A program made the translations under genes and the position numbers. A stretch of 10,615 nucleotides of DNA, taken from an uncultured Selenomonadales bacterium. Lineage in GTDB: Bacteria; Bacillota_C; Negativicutes; Selenomonadales; Selenomonadaceae. Below the pieces are notes generated by a model. That model did no database searches, had not been told where the DNA came from, and was given only the letters and a program-made list of their open reading frames with translations. The DNA is taken from NCBI GenBank assembly GCA_947302675.1, contig CAMYWI010000020.1, positions 1 to 10,615 on the forward strand. Direction: 5' to 3'. Every line of letters begins with the position of its first letter. Within the stretch, counting starts at the first letter, position 1. Shown here piece after piece: positions 273 to 9,018 of the stretch.

Positions 273-2189
273 TTGTATGAAATATTTTTATCGTCGTGGG
301 GCATGGGTTCGATTATTGTTGCCACGATTTTATTTGTTGTTTGGTATGTTTTCTGCGCAAGAGAAATTTTAACGCTCAGTAGCGAGATAAAGAAGTTTCT
401 TGCATGGTTGAATACGGAGATAGAGTTTCAAGACATTGACGCAGAATTTAAGAACTACAATCGACTTTTGCCTGTGTGGAAAATGTTTGAGAAGTCTCTG
501 ACGAAAACGAGTAGTACCGCTTATTCGACGACCGATTCAGCAGATTTTTTTTCGCCGCAAAATTTAACTCATGGAATGAATATGACATTCTGGCAAGCAT
601 ACGGCGGAATATTTACGGGCTTGGGGATTTTAGGAACCTTTGCGGGCTTGACTTACGGACTTAGCGGCGTTGATATGACCAGTGGCGACATCGAGACCTT
701 AAAAAACGGTATCGCGAAACTTTTATCGGGCGTTGAAAGCGCATTTGTTACTTCGCTCGTTGGAATTTTCTGCGCAATAGTTTACAGTGTTGCTCATCAT
801 CAGCTTTTGAAAAATTTTCAAGGAAATGTCAAATCGTTGGCTGAAAAACTCGATGAAGTGTTTCCGCGTCGTTCTGCAGAAGATTGGCTTGCTGACAGTT
901 GCAGAATCACAGGCGACCAAACAAATTCGATTAAAGAAATTGGCGAGGCTGTGACGCAAGCAATTTATGAAGGGCTCGACGAAAAACTCGGTGAAGCTGT
1001 CGAAAAACTTGACCCGCTTGTAGAAAAAATTTGCGAGGCGATTGAAAATTTGGGAGCCAGTGGAACGGATACTGTCGGCGAAATTTTTTCTGATAGAGTT
1101 GGGGCGCAGATGGATAGATTTTCTGTTGCACTCGACAAATTTACGAACAGCATAGACGAGAAATTGAAAAATGCCAATGAAATTTCCAGAATCATGAGTG
1201 AGCAACTCTTAAACACCTTGAATGAGCTTAACGATAGTTTGACTCAACAAGCAAAAACTTCTGCCGAAGAACGCAACGCCGATTACAAGATATTTTCTGA
1301 CACTATGGAAAACTTGATTAGCAATTTAACAGATGTCGCCGAAAAAATCAAAACTCAGCAGGAAAATACTGCCAATGATTTTGAAAAACTCGTAAAGAAT
1401 CTACTTGATAATTTTAATGCGGTCATGAATCAAACGACGACAAATATTCAAAGCGAAGTTGAAGAAACAAATAGGAAAAATCACGAGACATCAGAAAAAT
1501 TTTTGTCCACCCTTAGCGGACTAACTAACACTTTGCAAGAAGTAGCGGAAAACTCTAAGCAACAACAAAAGACTGCCGCAGATAATTTTGAGTCCACAGT
1601 AAATTCCTTGCTTGAGAATTTGAAAAATTTTGCTCAACAGCAAAAAGAGTATTTAGGCAGAATAGCAGACTCAAATGCTACGCAAATCTCTGAGGCGGTC
1701 AAAGCCTTCCGCGAAATCGTCGACAATCACAACGAAACGACTCAAAGAAGTTTTGTGCAAATTCAAAAGCTCCTGAGTAGACTGGAAGATTTGTTGCAGA
1801 ATATGGACGACGCAAGCACTTCACTTAATCAAGCCGCCGAGCCTGTGCGTCAAAGTACTTTACAACTCACGAGAAATTTGGAAGAGACTTCTGCGCAGAT
1901 GAAAAATCTTTCCACTGTTAATCAAACTACGCGGCAAAATCTTTTTGACTTGACAGCGCGGCTATCCGACTTCGTTAAAAATTTCGGTGGCATTGCTGAT
2001 GAACTCGAACGTTCTACAAAAATTATCCATGACAGCTTGGACAATTACAACGTCAAAACGAATGCGGGCTTAAAGGAGAAACTTGAGGTCTTTGATAAAT
2101 CTATGGCGGAATCAGTCGGTTATCTTAAAAATCTCATGGAAGATTTAACAGACCTTCTCGAAGATTCAAGACAATCTCGTAGGCGGTGA
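273..2189 (+). CDS. zorA: ZorA: MotA/ExbB-like stator with long coiled-coil tail (type I Zorya)
   Basis: This 638-residue protein has the layout of the Zorya motor subunit. A first membrane helix lies at about residues 10-29. A soluble stretch follows, then two MotA/TolQ/ExbB-type helices at about 107-131 (GLGILGTFAGLTYGLSG) and 154-174 (ESAFVTSLVGIFCAIVYS). The Thr/Ser residues in these helices (T122, T127, T160, S161) lie in the regions that line the ion path in this family. From about residue 185 to the end it is a hydrophilic, Glu/Lys/Gln/Asn-rich coiled coil of about 450 residues. Flagellar MotA and ExbB lack this, and it matches the intracellular tail of ZorA. By family knowledge, ZorA forms a pentamer around a ZorB dimer in the inner membrane, and the tail is needed for defence signalling. 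The start is TTG, supported by a strong ribosome site. zorB begins 4 bases downstream. The tail contains a 69-residue internal repeat, listed separately. Confidence 0.88.
   Translation: MYEIFLSSWGMGSIIVATILFVVWYVFCAREILTLSSEIKKFLAWLNTEIEFQDIDAEFKNYNRLLPVWKMFEKSLTKTSSTAYSTTDSADFFSPQNLTHGMNMTFWQAYGGIFTGLGILGTFAGLTYGLSGVDMTSGDIETLKNGIAKLLSGVESAFVTSLVGIFCAIVYSVAHHQLLKNFQGNVKSLAEKLDEVFPRRSAEDWLADSCRITGDQTNSIKEIGEAVTQAIYEGLDEKLGEAVEKLDPLVEKICEAIENLGASGTDTVGEIFSDRVGAQMDRFSVALDKFTNSIDEKLKNANEISRIMSEQLLNTLNELNDSLTQQAKTSAEERNADYKIFSDTMENLISNLTDVAEKIKTQQENTANDFEKLVKNLLDNFNAVMNQTTTNIQSEVEETNRKNHETSEKFLSTLSGLTNTLQEVAENSKQQQKTAADNFESTVNSLLENLKNFAQQQKEYLGRIADSNATQISEAVKAFREIVDNHNETTQRSFVQIQKLLSRLEDLLQNMDDASTSLNQAAEPVRQSTLQLTRNLEETSAQMKNLSTVNQTTRQNLFDLTARLSDFVKNFGGIADELERSTKIIHDSLDNYNVKTNAGLKEKLEVFDKSMAESVGYLKNLMEDLTDLLEDSRQSRRR
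1293..1622 (+). repeat. Tandem 69-residue repeat within the ZorA tail
   Basis: Residues 341-381 and 410-450 of ZorA align without gaps at an offset of 69 residues. I count 17 identities in 41 positions, plus many conservative pairs. The best-matching block is DVAEKIKTQQ against EVAENSKQQQ, continuing through a shared F-E...V...LL-N pattern. The DNA copies have diverged, so the duplication is old and visible only at protein level. The repeats lie in the coiled-coil tail, where adding or losing a unit would change tail length. Confidence 0.6.
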
Positions 2190-2193
2190 TTAA

Positions 2194-2900
2194 ATGCGAA
2201 GACGAACACCGCGCATTAAAGACGAGACCGCGCAAGATTCATTCACAATCAGCATTAGCGATTTGATGTCCGGCTTACTTGCAATTTTTATCTTAGTGTT
2301 GTCGTATTTCATTTTGAATTTCAGTCAAGCAACTGCGCAACTCACTCAAAATGACGTAACTCGTGCCGAGCTTCTGCGTTTCATGCAGAAGGAACTTGAG
2401 CGCGAAGGAATAAAAGTCACAGTCGACGAACAACACGGCATATTGAGAATATCAGAGGGCGTCCTATTCGATGTCGGAGCTGCTGATGTGAAACCGCAAG
2501 GGCAAATTGTGATAAGAAAGTTGAGTAGCGTACTCGAAACCGCGCTTGAATCAGAACAATTTCAAGGGCGCGTTGAAACGATATTTATAGAGGGGCATAC
2601 CGACAACGTGCCGATAGTTACTGAAACTTTTCCGTCGATTGGGAACTGTCAACGAAACGAGCGATAAATACTTGGCTAACGATGAGTAGCGCGAATCCCA
2701 AATTGACGACGATACTCAACGATAAACAAGAAATAATTTTCTCGGTGAGCGGTTACGCTGATACACGACCGATTGCGGAAAATTCTACGGAGGAAGGTCG
2801 TCGCGACAATCGGCGAATCGATATAAGATTTTCAATGACACCCCCGACGGAAGAAGATATGAGTATCGTTAAATTCGTGCGGAAGGAGTTGTCCGGATGA
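2194..2900 (+). pseudogene. zorB: ZorB: MotB/OmpA-like motor subunit, frame broken by a 1-base deletion
   Basis: The start ATG at 2194 follows zorA by 4 bases. The first frame encodes 157 residues and stops at 2665-2667. A single membrane helix lies at about residues 24-43, preceded by the Asp (D23, in SISDLMSGLLA) expected to carry ions in MotB/ZorB proteins. The OmpA-like peptidoglycan-binding domain then begins and includes GHTDNVPI (D137). After FPS (S148) the frame gives nonsense (IGNCQRNER). The frame starting at 2640 reads WELSTKRAINTW and continues through GRRDNRRIDIRFSM to the TGA at 2898-2900. These are the classic second half of the domain (FPSNWELSxxRA in relatives). Restoring one base at 2638-2639 (for example AT to AAT, giving Asn) yields a normal 235-residue protein. 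As read, the product would lose most of the peptidoglycan anchor. This is either a true mutation or a sequencing/assembly error. The ATG at 2682 has no ribosome site, so a separate second protein is unlikely. Confidence 0.85.
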
Positions 2901-4189
2901 GTTTGCGGGATTCGATAAAGGATTTGCGTAATGCCGCGAGGCGTTTGGATATCGCAGAATTTAACCCTTCAATGAATGCATTGGAAAAATTTTTGAGCGG
3001 AATCAAAGTCGATAAGCCGGCGACGCCGCCTGAAGATGTTTTGGCAAAACTTTTGGCAAAATATCTGCGCGGAGAAAATTTAGACTCCAAAGACCGTCGA
3101 AATTTGCCGTTCATAATTTATGAAGACGAGATAACTTTTAATCATACAAAAGATATTTTGAATAAGCTGGACTTTTCAAAGACAAGTCATTTACGGCGTG
3201 TGGTTAGCGTTTATCTCTTGAATTATGACAACACGCTAAAGACAAAACTTTTGAGAGAGCGATTAGATGTCATTCGAGAAGTTGATTCGGTATCGTTGAA
3301 GAAAATCTTTGCCGCTCGCGATAAACTTTTCTCGGAAAATCATATGGCGAATATGTCAAAATTTCTCGCACAGAAACTAAACGTAACTGGAGTAATTGAA
3401 GAGTTCGGACTGTCAAACTTTTATAAGGCGTCGAATTTTGTTCAAACCGCGCTGATAAATTTCTTTCGTTCAAATGTAGCAAACATTTCCGACCAATTTG
3501 AAATTCTGGACGAACTTGACGCCGAGTTTGACACATACAAGAATGTTTTCCCCGTTATTGCCGACACGCTAATTCAATCGGTTGCTCTGACAGGATTCGG
3601 CAAAAAGAAATGCATAGAAATTTTTTATCGTCGATTAGGCGACCCGCGCTTTGGATATATGCGGTTTAACTGGAATAAAATTTCAGAAGAATCCAAAGCG
3701 ATTTTCTTGCGTTGGCTGGTTGAAGACGATTTGGAGATATTCTTTAAGATCATCAAGCAGACAGCATTAGACAGAATGTGGCGTTATCGCGAGAAATTTT
3801 GGCGAGCATATCTGCCGCACATAAGCAACACATGGATTTTTTTGGGTAGTAACGCCAAAAGTATTGCTCGACAATTAGGCGATAAAAGTATGGGGCACGG
3901 CAATTTGGACGGCGGCTCAAGCGACCAGAGTGTTTTTGTTTTTCAAATCGGACGATACATTTTTTCCGAGTGGAGTCATAACGGCAAATTGCGAGTTTAT
4001 AAAACGGAATCGGCGAACCACTTTTTTGGCTCAAGCTCGTTAAGCAAATGGGAGATTGACGAAAATTTTATTGAGGCATGGATTCATTCCAGTCCGAGAA
4101 CTTATTCTTGGCAAAACAAAGTCAGTGAATGGCTCAAAATAAATTGCGGCGTTATCAAGACAGAAAATGATTGGGGGATTAAAGATTGA
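2897..4189 (+). CDS. zorC: ZorC: EH-signature domain protein of type I Zorya
   Basis: This is a 430-residue soluble protein with no signal peptide or membrane helix. Its ATG overlaps the zorB stop (ATGA, 4 bases), and GGAAGGAG at 2881-2888 sits 8 bases upstream, so the start is firm and probably coupled to zorB. The C-terminal part carries the EH-signature motif: IFSEWSHNGKLRVYK, with E358 and H361 as the Glu/His pair, followed by SSLSKWEIDENF and then WQNKVSEWL near the end. The N-terminal two thirds is helical and rich in Phe and Lys, with no motif I recognise. In known type I Zorya, ZorC is required for defence and is reported to bind DNA and act with ZorD. The position between zorB and a Snf2 gene supports the assignment strongly. 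No frame damage is seen. Confidence 0.85.
   Translation: MSLRDSIKDLRNAARRLDIAEFNPSMNALEKFLSGIKVDKPATPPEDVLAKLLAKYLRGENLDSKDRRNLPFIIYEDEITFNHTKDILNKLDFSKTSHLRRVVSVYLLNYDNTLKTKLLRERLDVIREVDSVSLKKIFAARDKLFSENHMANMSKFLAQKLNVTGVIEEFGLSNFYKASNFVQTALINFFRSNVANISDQFEILDELDAEFDTYKNVFPVIADTLIQSVALTGFGKKKCIEIFYRRLGDPRFGYMRFNWNKISEESKAIFLRWLVEDDLEIFFKIIKQTALDRMWRYREKFWRAYLPHISNTWIFLGSNAKSIARQLGDKSMGHGNLDGGSSDQSVFVFQIGRYIFSEWSHNGKLRVYKTESANHFFGSSSLSKWEIDENFIEAWIHSSPRTYSWQNKVSEWLKINCGVIKTENDWGIKD
4173..4177 (+). promoter_or_regulatory. Shine-Dalgarno site deciding the TTG start of zorD
   Basis: GGGGG lies inside the last codons of zorC, 8 bases before the TTG at 4186. That TTG overlaps the zorC stop as TTGA. 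The first in-frame ATG is at 4270, much further away. The TTG start is therefore preferred, with translation coupled to zorC. Confidence 0.6.
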
Positions 4190-7100
4190 ACACTACTTGG
4201 CAGGAGCGAGAGGAAGGTTATTTTTTCCCTCACGACAACTTATCGGCGGCAGTTAAATCGAAACTAGAAATGCTCAGCCTAGACGACACCGCGCAGACTT
4301 CTGACGCAGGTATCTTAATCCCATTTGAAAAATCCGTTCTTTTATCAGAGGAAGACGCTGAACTCTTGAACTTGCCGCCGCATAATCCTTATCAAATGTC
4401 AATCTGGACAGAAGGATACATTGGAAGCAAGAATTTCAAATACGTCGTTGAATTTTTGAATCCCGACAGTCGTCCTATCGTTAATCCGAAAATTAACGGC
4501 GCAATCCTCCATATCGGTAGCGGTGGTATCTTCCGACTCAATGCCGATCAATTCGCACTGATTAACTTGATGAAAATAGGTAATGAAAGTTCCTCGCGTG
4601 AGACAACCTTGTTGACGGCTCATCATATTCAAAAACATGCGACGGCGACCGATGCCAAACTTGACGAATATCTTTCGGCAGATAATGCAAAAATCGTCGT
4701 GCCCGACAAACTCAGCGTCGATTTTATAGATTTTTCGAGTAATGCAGTTAAAGTTCAGCCACTACTTTTGGAAAATCGTGACGGACAATCGGAACTGATT
4801 GACAGCGCGTCATTTCAAGAAGCTTTTGGTAATCGCAGAAAAGTTTTGAGTTCTTACAGAGACAAGAACGGAACGCGATACGTTTTTACTAAAGCCTTAC
4901 GAGATGGATTGGAACAGATTAAGTCAGTTGGTACCCTCAGCAAAGCCGATGCCGCTCTATATAGACTTCAGCCGAAAGAATTATTTTCCGGCGAGGCATT
5001 TGATTTCAGTTACTCTGACCGTGTCGTGGGCTTGGAGGAAATCAAAGTTTCTTCGTACTACGGTTCAGAAAGAGCCAAGATAGATTGGGTCGACGTTGAC
5101 GAAAAATCTCATGATGAAACGCCAAAAGAACCGTCACTTCCCAGAGAACCGAGAGAACGCCCAAAAATTTTCGCATTGAAGATAAAGGAAAATTTTGAGC
5201 GCGTCGACTACGAAAAAAATCTGTCAGAACGAGTTATGGAATTTTTTGCCGACGTACTTCGACCAGAAATAAAATTATTGCCGCATCAAAAATTGGGCGT
5301 GGGACTGATGGCGCAACTTTGGCAAAGTGGCTGGCATGGAATTCTGTTGGCTGACGATATGGGGCTTGGAAAGACTCTTCAAACACTGACCTTTCTTGCG
5401 GGACTTAAAAAATCTTGCGCAGAATACGAGAGAACAAATCAACCAATGCTAATCGTTGCGCCAACCGCACTTCTCACAAACTGGCAAGAAGAATACGAAA
5501 AATTTCTGTGCGAAAAATTCTTTGGTGAAATGATAGCATTGCACGGCTACAATCTGCGAAATTTCTTTACGGGCGAGTCTACTCCCAACGGCAAGCGTAA
5601 ACTTTCCTTGAAAAATCTACCGAAGGATTCTCTTGCGCTAACAACATACGAAACTCTGCGCGACTACCAATTTTCATTCGCAGAAATTTCTTGGAGTTGT
5701 ATAGTCGCTGATGAAGCGCAGAAGATAAAAAATCCTGACGCGGGTATAACGAAGGCACTCAAGGCAATGAAATACGACTTCGCGATTTGTCTGAGCGGAA
5801 CGCCCGTTGAAAATTCGTGGATTGATTTATGGAGCATTATGGATTTTGTTCAGCCTGCGCACCTCAACGACTTGAAAACTTTTCGTGAGAAATATCTTGG
5901 AAAATTGACTAACGAGGCAGAAAGTATCCAACGACTCGGCGAAGAGTTAAAGAATAATTTACGCCCGCTATTTCTTAGACGCATGAAACAAGGCAATTTA
6001 CAAGGCTTACCTACGAAAAAAATTTTCCGTTGTTCCGAACAAATGCCGCTTTATCAACGAGAAATCTATTCGGCAGTAGTTGAAAAATATCGCAACGGAG
6101 GATTTTCAAATCCACTCGAATTTTTAAGCAAACTGCGCGAAGTTTCCCTGCACCCCGACCTTGATACAATGTCAGAAGAAAAATTTTTTGCTCTCGATGC
6201 CAACGAAGTAATTAATCGCGCCGCAAGACTGATAAAAACTTTTGCGATCCTTGACGAAATAAAAGCTCGCGGCGAAAAAGCCCTAATCTTTGTCGTAAGC
6301 CGAAAAATGCAAGCGATATTAAAACACCTGCTCGAAGAAAAATTTAGAATGAAAATTCTTCCACCGATTAACGGGACGATGAATGGGGCGGCGCGTCAGA
6401 AGTTCATTGACGAGTTCAAAAATTCTATTGACTTCAATGTACTGATACTTTCACCGGAAGCAGCCGGCGTTGGTTTTACGATAACTGAAGCAAACAATGT
6501 TATTCATCTCGGTCGAACATGGAATCCTGCCAAAGAGAATCAAGCGACCGACCGCGTTTATCGTATCGGGCAGAAAAAATCTGTGAATGTCTATCTTCCG
6601 CTAGCTTGCGATAAGAATCTCCGTAACAAATCCTTCGATGAGAATCTTGACGCACTATTGAGCTACAAAAGAATTTTAAGCGAAAACGTTCTATTTCCTA
6701 CTGATGACCTCTCTACTGATGTACATACTTTGGCTGAAGAAATCGCTCCAAGCGTTGAAGAAGGGATTTCGCCAAGCTATTGGACTATCGAAGCTCTTGA
6801 CTCTGTCACAGGACTTGCGTTCGAGAAAATTATCTGCGACCTGTATAACGCAATGAAAGGTTTTTCTGCCGAGAAAACTCCAGGTTCAAATGATTTCGGA
6901 GCTGACGTTGTTGTCAAATCTTTAACCGATAGTACAGGATTGTTGATTCAATGCAAACACACCGAAAATCCTGACAGCTCTACGAACAACAAAGGCGTTC
7001 AAGAAATTTTCGCGGCAGTCGCCTATTACGAGAAAAAGTATTGTGGAAGAAAATTTCAGCCCGTTGTCATAACCAACGCCAAGAATTTCACAAACGGAGC

Positions 7101-7191
7101 AATCAAACTTGCTCACGACGACGGTGTTAAGTTAATCACTCGTCGAGAGCTTGAAAAAATGTTTTGTGACCATAAAATTTTACGGTGCTGA
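4186..7191 (+). CDS. zorD: ZorD: Snf2-type helicase fused to Mrr-like nuclease (type I Zorya)
   Basis: This is a 1001-residue protein. Residues 1 to about 300 form an N-terminal region without a recognised motif, followed by a charged, Pro-rich linker (about 306-327). The SF2/Snf2 motor occupies about 350-800. Its visible motifs are the Q-motif-like LPHQKLGV (from about 365), the Walker A motif DDMGLGKT (K396), the Walker B motif DEAQ (509-512), SGTP (537-540), motif V SPEAAGVGF (from 756) and motif VI QATDRVYRIGQ (786-796), with the RIGQ typical of Snf2 ATPases. The C-terminus (about 870-1000) is a PD-(D/E)XK restriction-endonuclease fold of the Mrr type: helix Glu E880, then D907 in NDFGADVVV, then Q922-x-K924 in IQCKH. 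All key residues are present, so both ATPase and nuclease look active. In the known system ZorD is the DNA-degrading effector. The gene has a TTG start with 4-base overlap to zorC. Confidence 0.9.
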   Translation: MNTTWQEREEGYFFPHDNLSAAVKSKLEMLSLDDTAQTSDAGILIPFEKSVLLSEEDAELLNLPPHNPYQMSIWTEGYIGSKNFKYVVEFLNPDSRPIVNPKINGAILHIGSGGIFRLNADQFALINLMKIGNESSSRETTLLTAHHIQKHATATDAKLDEYLSADNAKIVVPDKLSVDFIDFSSNAVKVQPLLLENRDGQSELIDSASFQEAFGNRRKVLSSYRDKNGTRYVFTKALRDGLEQIKSVGTLSKADAALYRLQPKELFSGEAFDFSYSDRVVGLEEIKVSSYYGSERAKIDWVDVDEKSHDETPKEPSLPREPRERPKIFALKIKENFERVDYEKNLSERVMEFFADVLRPEIKLLPHQKLGVGLMAQLWQSGWHGILLADDMGLGKTLQTLTFLAGLKKSCAEYERTNQPMLIVAPTALLTNWQEEYEKFLCEKFFGEMIALHGYNLRNFFTGESTPNGKRKLSLKNLPKDSLALTTYETLRDYQFSFAEISWSCIVADEAQKIKNPDAGITKALKAMKYDFAICLSGTPVENSWIDLWSIMDFVQPAHLNDLKTFREKYLGKLTNEAESIQRLGEELKNNLRPLFLRRMKQGNLQGLPTKKIFRCSEQMPLYQREIYSAVVEKYRNGGFSNPLEFLSKLREVSLHPDLDTMSEEKFFALDANEVINRAARLIKTFAILDEIKARGEKALIFVVSRKMQAILKHLLEEKFRMKILPPINGTMNGAARQKFIDEFKNSIDFNVLILSPEAAGVGFTITEANNVIHLGRTWNPAKENQATDRVYRIGQKKSVNVYLPLACDKNLRNKSFDENLDALLSYKRILSENVLFPTDDLSTDVHTLAEEIAPSVEEGISPSYWTIEALDSVTGLAFEKIICDLYNAMKGFSAEKTPGSNDFGADVVVKSLTDSTGLLIQCKHTENPDSSTNNKGVQEIFAAVAYYEKKYCGRKFQPVVITNAKNFTNGAIKLAHDDGVKLITRRELEKMFCDHKILRC

Positions 7192-7702: not shown

Positions 7703-8221
7703 ATGCTCAACGAAGTTAATTGGCCGCAAGATTATCTGCCCGGCACTACCGACAACTTCGCCTCGAACGAAATTATCGTTAAGGGCATTACCGCGCAGGA
7801 CGTCTTTGAAAATCTTATCGACACGTCCGTTTGGCAGAGTTATTACAACAACGTCGCCGACATTTATTTTTATGACGGTGACGCGCCCAAGCTCAAGGCG
7901 AACACGCGCTTTAAGTTCTCGACTTTCGGCTTTCCCATTGAGGCGCAAGTTGTGGAGTTCGAGGCTCCCGCTGACGGCAAGCCCGGACGTTTGGCATGGC
8001 ACGGTTGGGCTGAAGGTGACGCCGAACACCGCCTCGATGTCATTCACGCTTGGCTTATTGAAGATTTGCCCTTCGGGCGCGTCAGAATTTTGACTCAAGA
8101 ATCTCAAAAGGGCAAGCCCGCCAAAGATTTGTTCAACACCGAACCCGACATTATGAATCAAGGGCATCAAGACTGGATTAAAGGGCTTGCGCGTACCGTT
8201 CTTGCCTCAAAAAATCTATGA
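7703..8221 (+). CDS. SRPBCC (START/polyketide cyclase-like) domain protein
   Basis: This 172-residue cytosolic protein has the pattern of SRPBCC-superfamily helix-grip proteins. The N-terminus WPQDYLPGTTDNFASNEI is followed by GITAQDVFENLIDTSVWQSYYNN, the usual helix and 'W...Y' region. Alternating beta strands around residues 62-125 follow, with LAWHGWAEGD in the middle, and a long C-terminal helix (HQDWIKGLARTVL). Members bind hydrophobic ligands in a deep pocket, and the natural ligand here cannot be told. The ATG has a good ribosome site (TAGGAGA, 7687-7693). The stop overlaps the ATG of the HxlR gene. Such proteins are often found with HxlR regulators and small redox enzymes, suggesting a role in handling an organic or electrophilic compound, but this is inference. 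Confidence 0.75.
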   Translation: MLNEVNWPQDYLPGTTDNFASNEIIVKGITAQDVFENLIDTSVWQSYYNNVADIYFYDGDAPKLKANTRFKFSTFGFPIEAQVVEFEAPADGKPGRLAWHGWAEGDAEHRLDVIHAWLIEDLPFGRVRILTQESQKGKPAKDLFNTEPDIMNQGHQDWIKGLARTVLASKNL

Positions 8222-8541
8222 CTGCCTCAAACGATTTCACTTGTCCCGTCGACGTTGCGTTGAAGTTTATCGGCGGCAAATACAAACCGATTATCATCTG
8301 GCACCTCTTCCACAACACGCTGAGATTTAATCAGCTGTCAAAGTTGATTCCGAAGGCTACTCAAAAAGTTTTGACGCAACAACTTAGGGAATTGGAGCGC
8401 GACGGGATTATTCACCGCGAAGTTTTTCCCGTCGTGCCGCCGAAAACCGAGTACTCTATTACCGAATTTGGTAAGACGCTTTTCCCAATTATCTCCGCTA
8501 TGGCTGACTTCGGTAAAAATTTCCTCCGCGAGAAAGGTTGA
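8218..8541 (+). CDS. HxlR-family winged-helix transcriptional regulator
   Basis: This 107-residue protein matches the HxlR/YodB family along its whole length. It has an N-terminal CPVDVALKFIGGKYKPIIIWHL, the helix-turn-helix LRFNQLSKLIPKATQKVLTQQLRELERDG, the wing (IIHREVFPVVPPKTEYSIT) and a C-terminal dimer helix. The single cysteine, C9, sits at the position used in YodB and related proteins to sense quinones, diamide or other thiol-reactive agents. A redox-sensing role is therefore plausible but not shown. The ATG overlaps the preceding stop (ATGA) and lacks its own Shine-Dalgarno sequence, so translation is probably coupled. The likely target is the operator at 7617-7649 in front of its own operon. 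Confidence 0.88.
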   Translation: MTASNDFTCPVDVALKFIGGKYKPIIIWHLFHNTLRFNQLSKLIPKATQKVLTQQLRELERDGIIHREVFPVVPPKTEYSITEFGKTLFPIISAMADFGKNFLREKG

Positions 8542-8547
8542 TTGCTT

Positions 8548-9018
8548 ATGGCTAACGTCGGCAAAGATTTGGCTCTCATCAGTGCCGGCTCTCCCGAAAA
8601 TTTTAACGCCATGACGATAATGTATGGCGCAGTCGGCATGATTTGGAGTAAAAATGCGTATTTCGCTTTCATTAAGCCCGAACGTTTCACTTTCGACTTC
8701 ATTCAAGCCAACGAATACTTCACAGTTTCTTACTTCCCTAAGGAATTCAACAAGATACACAAAATATTCGGTTTTAAGTCCGGCAGAGATATGGACAAAA
8801 TCGCCGCGACCAGCATCACTCCCGAATTTCTCGACAACGCCGTCACTTTCAAAGAGGCTAATGAATTTTTTCTCTGCAAAAAGATTTACTTCAAGCAGAT
8901 GGACAAGAATTTTGAGCCTGAAGACGTTGTAGCAAAGTATTCCGACCCGAAAGATATAATCTACGGCGAATCGCATTACGCTCTTATCGGCGAGATTGAA
9001 AAGCATATCGTCAGATAA
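8548..9018 (+). CDS. Flavin reductase-like (FMN-binding split-barrel) protein
   Basis: This 156-residue protein reads KDLALISAGSPENFNAMTIMYGAVGMIW, then FIKPERFTFDFIQANEYFTVSYF, then FGFKSGRDMDKIAATSITPEF. This is the typical run of the flavin-reductase/NADH:FMN oxidoreductase-like family, with the Ser/Asn/Met flavin-contact loop and the SGRD motif. I choose ATG 8548 over the TTG at 8542, because AGAAAGG (8531-8537) is 10 bases from the ATG and only 4 from the TTG. Relatives usually have about 15 more residues before the conserved 'ALISAG' strand. Here an in-frame stop (the hxlR TGA at 8539) rules out extension, so the N-terminus is short. It is third in the SRPBCC-hxlR operon, 6 bases after hxlR, and is followed by a terminator. 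It probably uses FMN; the substrate is unknown. Confidence 0.78.
   Translation: MANVGKDLALISAGSPENFNAMTIMYGAVGMIWSKNAYFAFIKPERFTFDFIQANEYFTVSYFPKEFNKIHKIFGFKSGRDMDKIAATSITPEFLDNAVTFKEANEFFLCKKIYFKQMDKNFEPEDVVAKYSDPKDIIYGESHYALIGEIEKHIVR

Follow-up and report, generated by a model that had tools for sequence, protein, structure and literature searches.

In this study, we examined a type I Zorya operon in a 10,615-nucleotide stretch of DNA from an uncultured Selenomonadales bacterium (hereafter the window) and found its zorB gene to be broken by a change of reading frame. On balance, we believe that in this strain a genuine, recent one-nucleotide break has inactivated zorB and has very probably disabled the entire Zorya I system along with it. 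As sequenced, the system is predicted to be most likely non-functional; the kind of lesion is ordinary.

The operon spans positions 273-7191 in the order zorA-zorB-zorC-zorD, as recognized by the PADLOC profiles ZorA1, ZorB1, ZorC1 and ZorD1 (Table 1). The defining arrangement of Zorya I, zorA to zorD in one operon, is present, with all genes on the same strand and overlapping or nearly touching, and with zorB as two pieces only. Pfam models also back the identity of the three other gene products, each encoded, as originally predicted, by an intact gene. ZorA is a MotA/ExbB-like motor subunit with a long coiled tail (PADLOC ZorA1 E 2.5e-44; Pfam MotA_ExbB 29.9 bits, cut-off 22.9), ZorC matches Pfam EH_Signature at 153.9 bits (PADLOC ZorC1 E 1.3e-46), and ZorD combines an SNF2 helicase with an Mrr-like nuclease (PADLOC ZorD1 E 2.1e-304; Pfam SNF2-rel_dom, Helicase_C and Mrr_cat all above cut-off). 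The nearest relatives of ZorD lie on four contigs at 63-69% identity, all from uncultured Selenomonadaceae of ruminant guts and originating from rumen (two), cecum (one) and red deer (one), which points to such a bacterium as the source of the window. On the 3′ side of the operon, positions 7703-9018 of the + strand hold three genes: an unassigned one encoding 172 residues, one for an HxlR-type regulator and one that is flavin reductase-like. The flanks of the window showed no similarity to the fetched Zorya loci described below at blastn E 1e-5.

Table 1. Genes of the Zorya operon and the site of the frame change in zorB, in window coordinates
Feature	Position	Strand	Remarks
zorA	273..2189	+	TTG start, 638 aa; single open frame
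zorB 5′ piece	2194..2667	+	157 aa; PADLOC ZorB1 E 1.4e-40
zorB frame-change place	2638..2639	+	From DNA alignment and tblastn
zorB 3′ piece	2640..2900	+	86 codons, other frame; PADLOC ZorB1 E 3.3e-27
zorC	2897..4189	+	430 aa, EH signature; single open frame
zorD	4186..7191	+	TTG start, 1001 aa; single open frame

From its ATG at 2194, zorB encodes 148 family-like residues ending in FPS (codon end at 2637), followed by nine foreign residues and a terminating TAA at 2665-2667, while the rest of the domain (WELSTKRA...) resumes in the other frame at TGG 2640-2642 and ends with a stop at 2898-2900. This is the reading given in the original prediction, which had recognized the gene as zorB of a Zorya system and placed a missing base at the site of the frame change. 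With the intact relative P0001 as tblastn query, residues 1-148 matched 2194-2637 at 97.3%, and residues 146-234 matched 2628-2894 at 95.5% in the second frame. In a DNA alignment with 12 relatives, the window alone has a one-nucleotide gap at the site, and all 12 read through it in a single frame. Because each piece alone matches PADLOC ZorB1, the split is more than chance. The first piece, used as query, matched 389 proteins, of which the best 120 were listed and the remaining 269 score lower; FPSNWELS is exact in 119 of the 120 listed, with one substitution in P0036. Top query coverage among the listed matches was 96%, and thus none of these 120 of 389 carries the out-of-frame tail of the window ZorB. 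The best two relatives among the matches listed, P0001 and P0002, are intact at 235 residues and have a ZorB 97% identical to that of the window.

Structurally, the break falls inside the wall-binding domain, as had been claimed. An AlphaFold2 model of P0001 (24 sequences; over five models, mean pLDDT ran from 67.0 for the worst to 83.3 for the best) places a long helix (21-70), two strands (76-78 and 83-87), a helix (101-119) and a strand (127-135) before the break, and a helix (149-167), two strands (183-187 and 208-215) and further helices after it. As helix 149-167 begins after codon 148, the break falls in this model at the first residue of a helix of the OmpA-like domain. Published work on Zorya I reports that defence needs ZorB wall binding as well as all components, and its mutants show that both wall binding and defence depend on five ZorB residues (PMC11890865). 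By our own mapping, made from motif and spacing rather than by alignment to the published protein, these would correspond to H135, L152, R156, R203 and R208 of P0001. All five positions are invariant among 24 relatives, and four of the five so mapped lie beyond the break.

With zorB in two frames, the helix, the conserved Asp and the peptidoglycan-binding domain are not joined in one chain: the domain is split at the frame change, and its two pieces score 17.4 and 15.6 bits against Pfam OmpA, for which P0001 reaches 42.6 and the cut-off is 27.2. The 5′ piece does retain the membrane helix, Asp D23 included, again as predicted. The truncated ZorB would therefore keep its membrane helix and the ion-path Asp, with no foldable wall-binding domain; since it could not fold this domain, the ZorAB motor would be untethered from peptidoglycan and would leave ZorC and ZorD without a signal. 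The 3′ piece has an internal ATG at 2682 that opens a reading frame of 72 aa (2682-2900) without a membrane helix, and reading the sequence before this ATG revealed nothing like a Shine-Dalgarno sequence; if made from this start, the product would probably stay cytoplasmic. The start codon of zorC shares the letters ATGA with the stop of zorB and is preceded by a GGAAGGAG of its own, so downstream translation need not stop despite the break in zorB. ZorC and ZorD may thus still be produced, without a working sensor.

Zorya loci of related genomes are often damaged. In a sample of 189 genomes from the same family as G003, which carries locus L003, we identified 15 Zorya loci by way of zorB (14 genomes, E <= 1e-25), zorC (14 genomes, E <= 1e-20) and zorD (12 genomes, E <= 1e-100) only, a search that would miss weaker relics. 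All 15 were fetched and their frames checked: eight are damaged in varied ways, six show open frames throughout the sequence available, and one is cut by an assembly gap. Complete and open loci are those of G001, G003, G074 and G120, the zorC of G001 ending about a dozen residues early, at a size that also occurs in database ZorC records; in G058 and G104, Zorya is open to the contig ends. Among the damaged loci, that of G055 (L056) keeps zorB and zorD at full length, but its zorA is interrupted by a stop codon in frame and its zorC by a frame break; G101 has zorA in two frames, and its zorD contains stops as well as a gap; G002 has lost zorA and the start of zorB; G057 has zorA in pieces, zorB without its start and zorC in two frames, and zorD was not found; G070 has zorA in two frames and zorB without its start, and zorD was likewise not found; in G004 every gene is partly lost or replaced; in G113 zorB is joined to zorD and zorC is lost; and G076 holds a relic. 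In G176 (L065), an NN gap at 3489-3490 inside zorB gives an apparent frame break, and as the split sits on this gap the locus was left out of the damage count. For zorB alone (n = 14), eight genes are full-length and open, five are damaged, and one has the gap.

As a control, we looked at rpoB in these 15 genomes: 12 have it as a single open frame, the exceptions being G002 (split over two contigs), G076 (not found) and G176 (two frames); G058 has an extra partial copy. The accessory defence gene hsdR was matched in 10 of the 15 genomes by 23 rows, eight of them over the family cut-off, in five genomes; a check for stops within the match rows showed none, and the G070 match consists of two rows on one contig. 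The third control, valS, turned up in all 189 genomes, 170 of which scored over the cut-off, with no internal stop among the rows listed, the 19 genomes below the cut-off lying outside this check. The Zorya operon is longer than any control gene, and the per-base contrast in damage is therefore smaller than the raw counts; the numbers compared are small, and most genomes are multi-contig assemblies. In the literature searched, we found nothing on point about Zorya decay or Zorya in rumen selenomonads, from which we make no claim of absence from print.

In two of the damaged loci we observed heptamer-repeat hairpins, built of TTAGGAA/ATGAGGA units in inverted pairs and occupying the places of missing zorB/zorC parts. 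They lie on the reverse complement at about 1166-1240 and 1726-1805 of L064 (same contig as L004, in G004) and at about 1278-1360 of L063 (in G070). For a 28-mer of this family, with up to 2 mismatches allowed and overlapping matches included, the count is 188 in G001 and 122 in G004. The 28-mer is present in 12 of the 15 genomes; it is absent from G003, G120 and G176, and a reversed control pattern had no match in any of the 15. The window holds no member of this hairpin family.

The main rival to a genuine lesion is a sequencing or assembly error, in which case the organism's zorB would be intact and its Zorya I system normal; we regard this as quite possible, if short of probable. The break is the sole defect in an operon that otherwise remains open, and the severed 3′ part has barely diverged, being still 95.5% identical to intact P0001; this is how an error would look, and it is also what makes the lesion look recent, as the original prediction had offered. 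Relatives with the same frame break had been named as evidence against an error. Among the 120 listed of 389 matches there are none, so a sequence error stays a candidate. Furthermore, most damaged relatives show lesions larger than one nucleotide, and the comparable zorB split of G176 is an assembly gap, draft assemblies being known here to hold artefacts. Against an error, the site lies outside any simple repeat or long homopolymer and is therefore an atypical spot for an indel error: zorB has no simple repeat anywhere and no homopolymer of at least five at the break, its A/T runs of at least five or G/C runs of at least four occur at 2285, 2592 and 2841 only, and the run nearest to the break is TTTT at 2628-2631. 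The window has no N at the break, intact zorB alleles exist in the close relatives P0001 and P0002, and damage to Zorya is common and independent among related genomes (8/15). The ZorC record P0206, described below, reads like a further frame break and also favors a lesion.

Translational frameshifting, leaky or programmed, would let part of the ribosomes pass the break and yield some full-length ZorB. Read in the -1 frame, the sequence has no stop from 2625 until past the break and would give a product of about normal size, and the TTTT run lies in this stretch; however, inspection by eye found the canonical X XXY YYZ heptamer absent from the overlap, folding of the RNA downstream is on a par with that of shuffled sequences (z 0.06), and the 12 aligned relatives all have a single frame at the site. 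We thus consider frameshifting improbable. Phase variation by reversible one-base changes that switch zorB on and off, which the original prediction had also offered, would fit a one-nucleotide difference in a defence gene whose operon is otherwise intact, but is more improbable still given the lack of a simple repeat in zorB or of a homopolymer of at least five at the site, and a length change there in 0 of 12 relatives.

If the break is a genuine lesion, as we favor, it may belong to a wider pattern. We put forward, tentatively and with more doubt than confidence, that type I Zorya undergoes recurrent inactivation in ruminant-gut Selenomonadaceae, being gained, recombined and disrupted again and again through unrelated lesions that can hit any of the four genes, so that about half of the loci are dead at any moment. 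The window would represent the youngest stage of this proposed cycle of gain and loss. With regard to exchange, the ZorC records P0156 and P0159 have longest contigs equal to those of P0001 and P0002 (24,708 and 9,005 bases). Their identity to the window ZorC is just 65% and 64%, against 98% for the nearest ZorC, P0134. ZorB and ZorC relationships are thus out of step, which suggests zorB/zorC recombination, with records paired by equal longest contig only.

Individual protein records show further departures. The ZorB P0004 (165 aa) leaves the family sequence soon after FPSNWELS, and the ZorC record P0192, without its first 98 residues, shares its longest-contig size (1741 bases); the pairing, which rests on this equal size, suggests a deletion. 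P0027 (192 aa) misses an inner part of the ZorB domain. The ZorC P0206, 89% identical to that of the window, follows the family only up to residue 241 and stops at 246, and from the protein record alone reads like another frame break. C-terminal ZorB fragments of 65 and 72 residues (6/13 matches) were first taken for broken zorB genes; they were not counted, because other matches also begin at internal start codons and contig ends explain them equally well.

Searches of viral contigs gave no exact match to the 19-base window site and no relative of P0001, and ZorD as query gave one distant match (26% identity). Plasmid records gave five short matches (1-2% of query) at 71-84% identity, in genes named helicase or SNF2-related. 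Across the phylum, ZorB1 matched in 81 of 398 genomes; three places scored above 240 bits, all of them open (one being G003), and the remaining matches, at 74-107 bits, are taken to be MotB-like.

A single frame-broken defence gene is ordinary, and we see the frequent damage to Zorya as the more interesting lead. Recurrent inactivation, if true, would imply that loss is selected for because Zorya is costly, be it through its energised wall-tethered motor or through autoimmunity; if about half of a family's Zorya loci are broken, the cost of motor upkeep becomes a testable question. There is also a practical side. The expectation that annotation would report two short unrelated genes here was overstated: Pfam OmpA is indeed below its cut-off in both pieces, but both match PADLOC ZorB1, and a profile-based finder could therefore count the locus as a complete Zorya I. 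Defence-system counts from profile matches may thus include dead systems.

In relation to known systems, the window has the same four genes in the same order as Zorya type I (ZorABCD) and matches all four type I PADLOC profiles, whereas its zorB lies in two frames and its proteins fall below the NCBIfam type I cut-offs: 72.6 of 750 bits for ZorA1, 37.5 of 400 for ZorB1 (as P0001), 36.1 of 490 for ZorC and 371.7 of 1500 for ZorD. We therefore place it in a divergent branch of Zorya I; the general NCBIfam model ZorA_2 is passed (133 bits vs 100). The site has neither the conserved slippery heptamer with downstream structure of a programmed -1 frameshift nor the tract of repeats, or the long homopolymer, at which a simple-repeat phase-variable gene would switch. 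Among OmpA-like peptidoglycan-binding proteins such as MotB and Pal, P0001 matches Pfam OmpA and solved MotB chains such as 6ysf and 8ucs, its best solved match being 8vvn_B, deposited as a MotB-related protein; in contrast, the window ZorB has this domain spread over two frames, with neither half at the Pfam cut-off. With the eight damaged related loci, finally, the window shares broken or missing Zorya genes, but in most of those the deletions or insertions are larger or the lesions several, whereas the window combines one single-nucleotide lesion with three open genes.
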